NCBI RefSeq assembly: GCF_001027545.1
Contig: NZ_CP009498.1
Coordinates: 1-64,000 of the forward strand
Source of the DNA: Endomicrobium proavitum
GTDB taxonomy: Bacteria > Elusimicrobiota > Endomicrobiia > Endomicrobiales > Endomicrobiaceae
Length of the DNA: 64,000 nt
Direction: 5' to 3'
In this document: in pieces, positions 1-12,886 of the stretch
Layout: each line of letters begins with the position of its first letter
Position numbering within the stretch: position 1 is the first letter of the stretch
Notes under the pieces: generated by a model
Databases searched by the model: none
Told to the model about the DNA's origin: nothing
What the model saw: the letters and a program-made list of their open reading frames with translations, nothing else
Translations under genes and position numbers: made by a program

Positions 1-3000
1 ATGAAAACAATTTTGCGTGCAGTCATTACATTTTTTGTATGCGTCTGTCATACCGTGCTTGACACGGTATCCATGTTAAATAAAAAATGGATTCCGATTT
101 TCATCGGAAGCAGGAAAGCCGTTACTTTCTCCTTACTCCTTGCTACTTTTTCCTTGTTTTTGGCAGCGCCAAAAACCAATGCCCAAACATCTGTAAATAA
201 CTTCGCAGATTTTATAGCCATAACAACCACAACAAACAATTACGACATATCTTTAACCGGCGATATCTTCTTTTCCGGCGGTAATTTTAATGTTTTAAGC
301 GGAACAATTACCGGAAACGGATACGTGTTAGACGGGCAAAATGTAAATGCCGGAGTTCTGCTTACTTCCGGAAATAATTTATTTTTTTATGGCCCCATAA
401 CATTTCAAAACTTTTCAAAAATAGTAGGTAGCAGCGGAACAGCAGCTCAAGGAGGGGCGTTATTTGTAGCGGGAGCATATAATGCATATTCAGATAGCAC
501 AACCATCTTAAATTTTACAAATGCAATAATAAGCTTTACAAGCAATACGGTAAGAAGTGGGGTCAACGGAGCAGCAGCACAAGGCGGAGGATTATTTGTA
601 GGCGGAGTAGTCTCTGCCAGCGCAGGTATTGGAGCAAACCATTCCAGCAGCAGCGGCACAGCGATAGTAAATTTTACATCATCAACAATAAACTTCACAA
701 GCAATACAGTAGCAAGTGGAAACAATGGAACAGTCGCGCAAGGCGGAGGCTTATTTGTAGGAGGAGCGGTGTCAGCCGGAACATATAGTAATGGAGTAAA
801 CAATTCCAGCGGCGGCACAGCAATAGTAAACTTTACATCGTCAACAATAAACTTCACAAGCAATACGTTGGTAGTGAGTGGAAACACTGATGGAACGGCG
901 GCGCAAGGCGGAGGACTCTTTGTAGGAGGAGCGGTGTCTGCCGGAACATATGGTACCGGAGTAAGCAATTCCAGTAACAGCACAGCAATAGTAAACTTTA
1001 TATTGTCAACAATAAACTTTACAAGCAATACGGTAACGAATACAAATCAGGGAACCGTTGCGCAAGGCGGAGGGCTCTTTGTAGGCGGAGCGGTCGCAGC
1101 CGGAGTACGTGCTGGAACAAACAATGCCAGTAGCGCCACAGCGATAGTAAACTTTACATCGTCAACAATAAATTTTGCAGGCAATATAGCAAAGAGCGGA
1201 TCTGCTGCAACAGCCGCGCAAGGCGGAGGACTGTTTGTAGGAGGAGCGGTTGCAGCCGGAGCAAATGATACTACTGGAACAAACAATGCCAGCAGCGGTA
1301 CAGCGATAGTAAACTTTGTATTGTCAACAATAAACTTCACAAGCAATACGGTAAGGGGTGGAGATGCCGGAACAGCAGCGCAAGGCGGAGGGTTATTTGT
1401 AGGAGGAGCAGTCGCAGCCGGAGGAATGGGTGCTAGTAAAAATTTCAGCAGCAGCGGTGCAGCGATAGTAAGCTTTACATCATCAACAATAAACTTTGCA
1501 GGCAATATGTTAATTGTTGACGGATCTAATGGAAGCTCCACACAAGGCGGAGGGTTATTTGTAGGAGGAGCGGTCGCAGCTAGCTCATATGGTAATGGAG
1601 TAAATAATTCCAGTAACAGTACAGCAATAGTAACTTTCACAGATTCAAAAGTTAATATAGACGGTAACGCCGCGCAAGACGGCGGAGGAATGTTTATAAG
1701 CGGTTCAGTATCAACAGGTAGCTTTTATGGTATCGGCGTGGCCACCAACGGCGTAGCGCAAGTAAATTTTACCGGTTCAACAATAGCAATAACAGGCAAC
1801 GTAGCAAGCGTGCAAGGCGGAGGAATATATATAGCGGGAAATTATGGAGCAGGTTCCAGCGGAGGGCAAGCAAGCCTAATATTTGAGAATGCACAAGTTT
1901 CATTTACAAGCAACACGGCAACAAGCGGAAGCGCAATATACGCAAATAACGGTTCAACGGTAGTGTTTAAAAACTCGGATGTAAAATTTATAGAAAACGT
2001 TACGATAGGGGCAACAACGGAAAACGGAGGAGCGGTTAGCGTAGAGCGACGTTCTAAAGTTATTTTTTCATCCGGAACAACGGAATTCAAAGATAATACG
2101 GCATCAAGAGGATCGGGAGTATATGTTAGAAGCAGCAGCACAGTAGAGTTCATCTACGGGGATGTAAAATTTGATAATTCATATATATATGTAGTTATGG
2201 ATTCAACAATAAGTTTTAGCAGCAGCAATGTGTTGTTGAGTAATAATAATACGGGCGCCCGCGCAACGTCAGTAGGAAGTAGAGCGTGGTTTTTAGTTAA
2301 CAGCAGTACGGTTGAATATGTAAATAATAATAGTGATAACGGCGCTGCAATATTTTTAGATAGTAAAGGAAGTGCAGTATTTTATAGAAGTAATGTTAAT
2401 TTTAGCAGCAATACGGCTGACGATAGCGGAGGAGCGATAGGGTCAAGATATTTTTCAACCGGTTCCGGTAATATGGCATTTGAAGGCGGAGTAGTAAATT
2501 TCAATTATAACACAGCGGGAAGCGCCGGCGGAGCAATATATATAGCAGCTAGTTCAACAATGAGCTTTACAGGAACAACGGTAACATTCCAAGGAAACAG
2601 CGCGCGGCAAGGAGGAGCAGTAAATGCAGTTAGCAATTCAAGCTTTATTTTTACGGGCGGAGCAGTAGAATTCTTGTGGAACAATACAACAAACGGAAAC
2701 GGTGTAGTGTATTGGGACACAAGTTCATACGTTGGGTTAGAAAATGCAAAAATAACAAAAGCAATAGGGAACCAAGCCAACAACGGCGGATTTTTATATT
2801 TGGTAAACCAAGGAACGTGGAGCTTTGCAAATATAGATATGTCGTCAAACACAGCGCGAAGCGGATACGGAGGAGCGTTGTATTTGAATAGCGCAACAGT
2901 AGTATTTAGCGGAACAAATACAATTAGTTATAACACAGCAAACAGCTACGGCGGAGCAATACAAGCGTTTGATACAAAGAATATAGATTTCAGTTTGGCA

Positions 3001-8842: not shown

Positions 8843-8955
8843 AACGGCAAAGTGAAAAGTGACACACTTGTGTGTCATTGCCGAAATCCGTAATCGGCAA
8901 TCCACGTTTGCTAAATATTAGATGTATGCATTATATCTTTAAAAGTGAGAAGTGG
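8843..8955 (+). repeat. Dispersed composite repeat, type A
   Basis: About 113 bp right behind the autotransporter stop codon. It begins AACGGCAAAGTGAAAAGTGAC and contains a small palindrome (ACACACTTGTGTGT) and the core TGTCAT-TGCCGA-loop-TCGGCA-ATCCA (8873-8904). An almost identical copy lies inverted at 32551-32664, and a related type with a different but still complementary stem lies at 32313-32425 and 12409-12516. Confidence 0.85.
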
Positions 8956-10733: not shown

Positions 10734-10858
10734 TGTCATTCCTGCGAAAGCAGGAATCCACAGTTACTAAAAATAATAAAAATCCCTACACGCCGAAGGC
10801 GTGAATTGTCGAAGATGATAATTAGTAAAAATGGATTCCTGCTTTCGCAGGAATGACA
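10734..10858. repeat. Facing pair of palindromic repeats between cca and queE
   Basis: TGTCAT-TCCTGC-GAAA-GCAGGA-ATCCA at 10734-10760 and its exact inverse TGGAT-TCCTGC-TTTC-GCAGGA-ATGACA at 10832-10858 face each other about 70 bp apart. Each unit is a hairpin, and the two together form a larger inverted repeat, a layout like a miniature element with structured ends. The gap lies between the convergent ends of cca and queE. Confidence 0.85.
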
Positions 10859-10941: not shown

Positions 10942-11703
10942 TTATCTAATCCTTAAAATCTTATGCAGTTGCGGCATTATCAATACGTTCGGGAGTGTTT
11001 TTTTTAGTTCCGTGTAAAATGCGGATAGGTTTTTTGCAAGAGGAATGTCTTTGCCGGTTGAAGGTTGTAAAATAAGACATATTTTTTTAGAGGCGCTGCG
11101 GATAATTTGTCCGCTGCGCTTTATTTCATTTAATGATGTATTTTTCGTAACAACGCATTTTACAAATACTTTATCTTTTGCGATTTTTAAAAATTCTTTA
11201 TGTTCTTTCCAAAAACTTTTTTTGCATTCGGATTGAAATTTAAAATCCATTGAAACTATATCGCAGAAAGAAATAATCTTTTTTAAATTTTTCGGAAGAG
11301 TTCCGTTTGTTTCCAAGTAAACTTGAAAGCCGTATTTTTTTAATGCCGGTAAAAAAACTTTTAAAAAATCGGCATGTATCAACGGTTCCCCGCCGGTTAT
11401 TGCTATTGACGGTTTAGATGTACCTGTCATTGCGAAGCGCGAAGCGCCGCGGCAATCCATTTTTTTTAAAATTTTTTCAATTTCAGCAAGCAGTTCTTGA
11501 GAAGAGTAATATTTAGCATTGTCGGATATTTTTATAGAATAAGCCGTATCGCAGTAATTACACTTTATATTGCACCCGGCAAAACGCACAAAAATTTGAG
11601 GAGTTCCCGTATAAGGACCTTCCCCTTGGTAAGAAAAAAACACTTCATAAACCGGAGCATAGATGTTTGTTATTGGTTTTTGTTTTTTAACTTTGCTTTT
11701 CAC
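10942..11703 (-). CDS. queE: 7-carboxy-7-deazaguanine synthase (radical SAM), with in-frame repeat insertion
   Basis: Radical-SAM enzyme that converts 6-carboxytetrahydropterin to 7-carboxy-7-deazaguanine in queuosine/preQ0 synthesis. QGEG at 26-29 and the CxxxCxxC cluster motif (Cys44, 48, 51) are family hallmarks, and ITGGEP lies at 102-107. GTG at 11703 is the start. Residues about 82-94 are encoded by a palindromic repeat (11425-11459) inserted between the helix before ITGGEP and the strand itself. Other family members have only a short turn there, and the reading frame is kept. The gene is last in the order queD-queC-queE on this strand, so its product works right after QueD. Confidence 0.92.
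   Translation of the reverse strand: MKSKVKKQKPITNIYAPVYEVFFSYQGEGPYTGTPQIFVRFAGCNIKCNYCDTAYSIKISDNAKYYSSQELLAEIEKILKKMDCRGASRFAMTGTSKPSIAITGGEPLIHADFLKVFLPALKKYGFQVYLETNGTLPKNLKKIISFCDIVSMDFKFQSECKKSFWKEHKEFLKIAKDKVFVKCVVTKNTSLNEIKRSGQIIRSASKKICLILQPSTGKDIPLAKNLSAFYTELKKTLPNVLIMPQLHKILRIR
11425..11459. repeat. Palindromic repeat in frame inside queE
   Basis: TGTCAT at 11425-11430 and ATCCA at 11455-11459 flank a GC-rich, imperfectly self-complementary core. The framework is that of the intergenic copies. On the coding strand it reads through without a stop and adds about 13 residues (MDCRGASRF and following) to QueE. Confidence 0.8.
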
Positions 11704-11759: not shown

Positions 11760-12413
11760 TTAAATTGCCGGATCGTTAAGTTCTGCTTCTTTAAAACCTT
11801 TTGCTCTCAATTTGCATGAGTCGCATGTGCCGCAAGGTTTTTTCAAACCGTTATAACAAGACCATGTGTATTGATACGGAACTTTTAATTTTCCGCCGAG
11901 TTTTATAATTTGGGCTTTTGTCATGTTTACGAGAGGAGCCTGAACCGTAATTTTTAATCCGAGAGATTTCAGCAGTCCGTTGTATGCTTTTATAAACTCA
12001 GGTCTGCAGTCGGGGTAGCCGGAATAATCCAGCGCGTTTGCGCCGATAAAAATACTTCGCGCGTTTATTGATTCCGCATAAGAAAGTCCGTAAGATAAAA
12101 AAAGCGTGTTGCGTCCGGGAACGTAAGTTGCGGGGATAATGTCTTTTATAACTTTATGCGTAGGAACTTTTTTATTTTTGTTTGTAAGAACGTCTTTAGA
12201 CCACGGCAGAGAAAGTTTAATAACGGTAAAATCCGCCTTTACAAGTTTTGCAATTTTCTGCGCGGATTTTATTTCTCTTTTATGACGCTGCCCATAATCA
12301 AAAATTAAACAATAGCACTTATAACCTTTTGACAAAGCGTAATAAAGCGCCGTCGTAGAATCTAACCCGCTGGAAAACAAAATAACAGCATTTTGCTTTT
12401 GCCGTATTTTCAC
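11760..12413 (-). CDS. queC: 7-cyano-7-deazaguanine (preQ0) synthase
   Basis: ATP-dependent enzyme that turns 7-carboxy-7-deazaguanine into preQ0. The 217-residue protein has the PP-loop motif SSGLDS at 14-19 and the C-terminal zinc-binding cysteines 186, 194, 197 and 200 (CGTCDSC). Translation most likely starts at GTG 12413. The GGAGAG ribosome-binding site and the GTG both lie in the end of a dispersed repeat that fills the gap to queD. Length and motifs are normal for the family. It is the middle gene of the queD-queC-queE set. Confidence 0.93.
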   Translation of the reverse strand: MKIRQKQNAVILFSSGLDSTTALYYALSKGYKCYCLIFDYGQRHKREIKSAQKIAKLVKADFTVIKLSLPWSKDVLTNKNKKVPTHKVIKDIIPATYVPGRNTLFLSYGLSYAESINARSIFIGANALDYSGYPDCRPEFIKAYNGLLKSLGLKITVQAPLVNMTKAQIIKLGGKLKVPYQYTWSCYNGLKKPCGTCDSCKLRAKGFKEAELNDPAI

Positions 12414-12516
12414 TTTTCACTCTCCACTTTACCGTTAAATAATGAACACGTATAATATTTAGCAAACGTGGATCCCGGATTAAGACATTCCGGGATGACA
12501 CTTCGTGTCGCTCTTC
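12409..12516 (-). repeat. Dispersed composite repeat, type B, filling the queD-queC gap
   Basis: The reverse complement closely matches 32313-32425. The core is TGGAT-CCCGGA-loop-TCCGGG-ATGACA (12469-12500 on the plus strand). At one end the repeat sequence provides the TGA of queD; at the other it provides the GGAGAG and GTG that start queC. The gap holds nothing else. Confidence 0.85.
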
Positions 12517-12886
12517 ACTCTGCTGTTATTGTTGCCGAAGAAGTGTCGCTTTCCCAAACTTCTACTTCCGCCACTTTTGCGGTAAGCGTTTCGGCTTTTT
12601 TTAATTCTTCAAAAATATACAAGGCTATGTTTTCTGCCGTGGGGTTTATTTTGTCAAAAGGCGCGGTTTCGTTTAAAAATTTATGGTCTAAATAAGTCAT
12701 AATTTTATCAAGATGCGCTTTCAAATCCGTAAAATCTATAAGCATTCCCGTTTTGTCTAATTGCGTTCCGCCAAATGCCGCGCGGATTTTCCAATTGTGC
12801 CCGTGGACGTTTTCGCACTTGCCTTTATATTCTCTTAGACAATGCGCCGAGGCAAAACCTTTTGTAACCGATAATTTATATTTCAT
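12515..12886 (-). CDS. queD: 6-carboxy-5,6,7,8-tetrahydropterin synthase
   Basis: Converts dihydroneopterin triphosphate to 6-carboxytetrahydropterin, the first dedicated step toward queuosine. The 123-residue protein has zinc ligands His15, His28 and His30 (VHGHNW) and the catalytic Cys24. The LDHKFLNE segment with His68 and a C-terminal VWES complete the pattern. The start codon overlaps the murI stop by 4 nt, implying coupled translation with murI. The last residues and the stop codon sit in the edge of a dispersed repeat. Confidence 0.93.
   Translation of the reverse strand: MKYKLSVTKGFASAHCLREYKGKCENVHGHNWKIRAAFGGTQLDKTGMLIDFTDLKAHLDKIMTYLDHKFLNETAPFDKINPTAENIALYIFEELKKAETLTAKVAEVEVWESDTSSATITAE

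Follow-up and report, generated by a model that had tools for sequence, protein, structure and literature searches.

Protein-coding palindromes are best known in Rickettsia and Wolbachia, bacteria whose reduced genomes and relaxed selection make such cases harder to interpret. Among short palindromes, the CGTC-tagged REPs (Di Nocera, De Gregorio and Rocco 2013, PMC3733652) include Neisseria dRS3 and the Rickettsia conorii elements RPE-4 and RPE-6. They carry an unpaired CGTC, TGTC or CCTC tag and an 8-9 bp stem with a 4-5 nt loop, occur mostly as inverted pairs with some intragenic copies, and have no dedicated transposase; Elusimicrobiota are not mentioned in that study. The RPE-1 type elements (Ogata 2000, reviewed by Delihas, PMC2229807) measure 105-146 bp, and a guanylate kinase that bears an RPE is translated and active, with an altered substrate affinity (PMC2229807). 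We found no Endomicrobium paper on such repeats, and a literature search with the raw motif returned unrelated papers only.

The window analysed here is the first 64 kb of an Endomicrobium genome that consists of a single contig of 1,588,979 bases. A sequence-only reading had placed a palindromic repeat in frame within queE, and the element was recovered there as an exact match, with the reading frame open across it (Table 1). Read on the coding strand as TGGATTGC...GCAATGACA, its 35 nt together with one flanking A make 36 nt, a stop-free multiple of three whose 12 codons encode QueE residues 82-93 (MDCRGASRFAMT); GTS and the strand KPSIAITGGEP come next. The residues are thus in frame as claimed, but 12 rather than about 13 (82-94) are encoded, and the net gain over the relatives is seven. 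As in RPE-like insertions, the repeat lies in frame in a conserved gene and is extra relative to the orthologues (net +7). The reading we favour, at a probability of roughly 0.88, is that a palindrome was inserted in frame into a linker of QueE, that part of the ancestral loop was lost, and that the protein tolerated the change.

Table 1. Genes and palindromic elements in the window
Feature	Position	Strand	Basis or remark
Element TGTCATACCGTGCTTGACACGGTATCCA, in frame, N-terminal region of 2945-aa surface protein	46..73	+	8-bp perfect stem
Degenerate second element TGGATTCCGATTTTCATCGGAA, in frame, N-terminal region of 2945-aa surface protein	88..109	+	sequence
Intergenic copy TGTCATTCCTGCGAAAGCAGGAATCCA, left arm of inverted pair	10734..10760	+	8-bp stem, 4-nt loop; z = -5.1
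Intergenic copy, right arm of inverted pair	10832..10858	-	pattern match
queE, 7-carboxy-7-deazaguanine synthase, 253 aa, GTG start	10942..11703	-	intact radical-SAM CX3CX2C and ITGGEP motifs
Palindromic element (TGTC...CCA) in queE	11425..11459	+	sequence TGTCATTGCGAAGCGCGAAGCGCCGCGGCAATCCA; exact match
queC	11760..12413	-	TIGR00364 above cutoff; pathway and strand as queE
Intergenic copy TGTCATCCCGGAATGTCTTAATCCGGGATCCA, between queC and queD	12469..12500	-	8-bp stem; z = -3.1
queD	12515..12886	-	TIGR03367 above cutoff; pathway and strand as queE

Compared to the CGTC-tagged REPs, the queE copy shares the TGTC tag (11425-11428), A and T as the first two stem pairs, and an unpaired CCA tail at its ...ATCCA end. 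However, its stem (ATTGC...GCAAT) consists of 5 bp, an interruption and an inner 5 bp, instead of 8-9 bp with a 4-5 nt loop. The neighbouring copy at 10734-10760 has every sequence feature of these REPs, including the 8-bp stem and 4-nt loop. The Endomicrobium family also resembles them in being mostly intergenic, in forming inverted pairs, in having some copies in frame in genes, and in being accompanied by no RAYT transposase in this genome. The queE copy therefore resembles the CGTC-tagged REPs and clearly has the same ends, but strictly it falls outside the four published families. It is like the RPE-1 type in being a selfish palindrome in frame within a housekeeping gene, and differs in size, with 35 bp and 12 residues against the 105-146 bp of the Rickettsia elements. 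The earlier comparison with Rickettsia palindromic elements thus holds for the kind of event, whereas the nearest family is that of the CGTC-tagged REPs (RPE-4/RPE-6) and not the long RPE-1. GTAG REPs with RAYT transposases are likewise short and asymmetric, and often occur as inverted pairs; the Endomicrobium family lacks their GTAG tag and a Y1-transposase match. The Y1-transposase domain (PF01797) was present in 11 of 21 genomes searched and had no match in this one, on which ground a RAYT was rejected as the mobiliser of these palindromes.

Copies throughout the genome were sought with the pattern GTCATYSCN{0,30}GSRATCC, with the same pattern reversed as a control. The pattern had 46 matches against none for the control, so the family repeat said to be lodged in the protein does belong to a real family. 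One overlap (764260 and 764273 are one element) and two matches that are probably native coding sequence fitting the pattern by coincidence (729782 and 1276291) were dropped, leaving about 43 copies; the count derives from pattern searches and the stretches around matches, and degenerate copies are undercounted. These palindromes have GTCAT..ATCC ends, fall into several subtypes and are nearly all intergenic. About six of the 43 lie within genes made credible by Pfam or NCBIfam support, namely queE, pyrK, a gene for a filamentous-haemagglutinin-type protein and those of three paralogous surface proteins. Several other ORFs that run across elements, such as those at 8874, 76037 and 196929, look spurious. 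Most of the window is taken up by ORFs (94% by a greedy count that is crude and too high), and the copies are therefore strongly under-represented in coding DNA; with a coding share of just 75%, six or fewer intragenic copies among 43 would still have a binomial probability of ~6e-17, with copies taken as independent. The sequence-only reading had also reported the same repeat in non-coding gaps near queE. The three intergenic copies of Table 1 do share its ends, but not its subtype, of which the queE copy is the only one found in this genome. Two of these intergenic copies (10734 and 12469) fold much more stably than shuffled sequences, unlike the queE copy, whose hairpin is weak (z = -0.4, coding strand). 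Elsewhere in the genome, at 297165-297430, one subtype is present as three identical copies at an exact spacing of 118 bases, which suggests a larger tandem unit.

Such strong avoidance of coding DNA is what speaks for an inactivating queE copy in a decaying gene. We consider this very unlikely, because queE has no stop or frameshift and is the sole full-length QueE gene in the genome, and queC and queD, upstream on the same strand, are both intact. Moreover, an alignment of relatives showed every family-invariant QueE residue to be retained, in agreement with the claim that the radical-SAM and substrate motifs are undamaged. NCBIfam QueE models score at most 87.7 bits on the protein, under their curated cutoffs; it is identified as QueE by its radical-SAM fold, its CX3CX2C motif and a gene adjoining queC and queD.

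The relatives compared are Endomicrobiaceae from termite guts. A QueE query had matches in 56 of 60 genomes, and the best 30 sequences, from this genome and 29 relatives, were aligned. The spacing from the CDT in the cluster motif to TGGEP is 42 residues in most of the 30 and 49 in this QueE. All 29 relatives have other sequence at the position of the element, usually seven residues shorter; three congeners read NKKNFNAG, NKKYFFD and NKNNFYK at the loop site, which here reads MDCRGASRFAMTGTS. The insertion is thus absent from these relatives. The alignment suggests that the event was not clean, with 12 residues gained and about five ancestral loop residues probably lost, for a net change of +7 rather than +12. 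The nearest QueE among relatives is just 62-65% identical, so the event can be placed no more precisely than after this lineage had separated from the congeners.

Three relatives (G004, G014 and G017) have loops of 47-49 residues over the same stretch, which are unrelated in sequence and contain no recognisable element; the loop therefore also lengthens by other means. No repeat copies were found in the genome of G004. The loops of G014 and G017 have small inverted repeats, and were rejected as other repeat elements since they belong to no repeated family in their own genomes: searches there returned the queE copy only, plus one match with three mismatches in G014. No repeat-free relative thus had a segment both similar and of the same length. 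These long loops would fit a linker that simply varies in length, with the resemblance to a palindrome arising by chance convergence. That account is extremely improbable, as the queE copy agrees with the repeat family at both of its ends, TGTCATTGCGA and GCAATCCA, and its pattern had no match in 100 shuffles of the 64-kb window, in addition to the empty reversed control in the genome.

The AlphaFold2 model of QueE has a mean pLDDT of 86.9, with values below 50 at residues 86-88 and 91-94, which sit between helix 68-83 and strand 99-104. Its Foldseek matches are 5TH5 (closest), 4NJG and 6NHL. In line with the suggestion that the segment would form a loop, it is modelled as a flexible, disordered helix-to-strand linker. 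In radical-SAM barrels the catalytic groups lie at the strand-to-helix end, and a helix-to-strand linker is therefore a tolerant place. The model would put the element on the barrel face away from the active site and catalytic loops. In the mechanism we propose, a short palindrome of an Endomicrobiaceae-wide family would have entered queE in frame in this Endomicrobium lineage, landing in the linker between helix 68-83 and the ITGGEP strand. About five ancestral loop codons would have been lost at or after insertion, with loss probably following insertion, and the insert would persist within the protein with little or no effect on fitness. With the linker away from the catalytic loops and the frame kept, the protein is predicted to fold and work, and QueE activity is presumably preserved.

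Alternatively, the insert might have been selected for a benefit, through QueE stability, partner binding, regulation or an RNA hairpin in the queE message. Its retention in an intact gene beside queC and queD agrees with such a role, as does the analogous PyrK insert kept by congeners. We regard a benefit as unlikely nonetheless, given that the hairpin is no stronger than in shuffles, that the loop has low confidence in the model and that no relative has this QueE insert.

In-frame insertion of palindromes is seen in other genes and species as well. The QueE of Endomicrobium sp. Hs463_bin78 (G018; L019, L121) carries an in-frame palindrome of another sequence, AGATTGCGGGTCAAGCCCGCAATGACG, ahead of YLETN (L019 1740-1785, residues about 98-114), for a net gain of 14 residues over all others. 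Its hairpin is strong (z = -4.35), and the insert again models as a disordered helix-to-strand linker, with pLDDT below 50 at residues 100-111. Two queE insertions in about 30 genomes are only suggestive of recurrence, since the first one prompted the search. The PyrK of the present genome (G000:C1:764051-764833; L156, L066) has an in-frame palindrome encoding VIARRIAKQSDAAIQ just before YVCGP. In one congener (G003) the corresponding segment is VIARSRCDAAIQ, with an identical right-hand junction; another (G002) has a remnant, SAAIQ, and other genera have sequences such as LLEKKLKSDD. Most simply, this is one old insertion retained in the genus; the sequences could also reflect repeated insertion at one site. 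A second PyrK loop, after LGPLGxGY, has other repeat-like insertions, e.g. LPSPLAGEGGTKSRVRG, in several relatives (L158, L164, L182 and L183).

With the queE insert, a known process gains a new example, from a phylum that the CGTC-tagged REP survey does not mention. Across relatives' genomes, the family numbers 0 to 493 copies, against 0 or 1 per genome for the control pattern. Small genomes of one genus (g8; G010, G020, G025, G028, G033 and G035) have 0-2 copies, and other genera of the family reach hundreds. Endomicrobiaceae may be a further lineage outside the Rickettsiales in which mobile palindromes repeatedly build new loops of core enzymes, either because helix-to-strand connections are preferred sites or because insertions there are tolerated, with some kept across species (PyrK), a generalisation to which we give somewhat less than even odds. 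If true, it would offer a cultivable free-living model for selfish repeats turning into protein. Here an apparently cultivated, free-living termite-gut host has palindrome inserts in two metabolic enzymes, the PyrK one being common to more than one species. Such a system would permit direct tests of insert neutrality and of what moves transposase-less CGTC repeats.

In addition, large beta-helix-like surface proteins have tandem in-frame palindromes (CHTVLDTVSMLNKKWIPIFI) N-terminal of a likely signal peptide. The tandem N-terminal elements are common to a paralogous surface-protein family of this genome, at 215671, 478128 and 1241146, and partly at 154354, 411205 and 642771.
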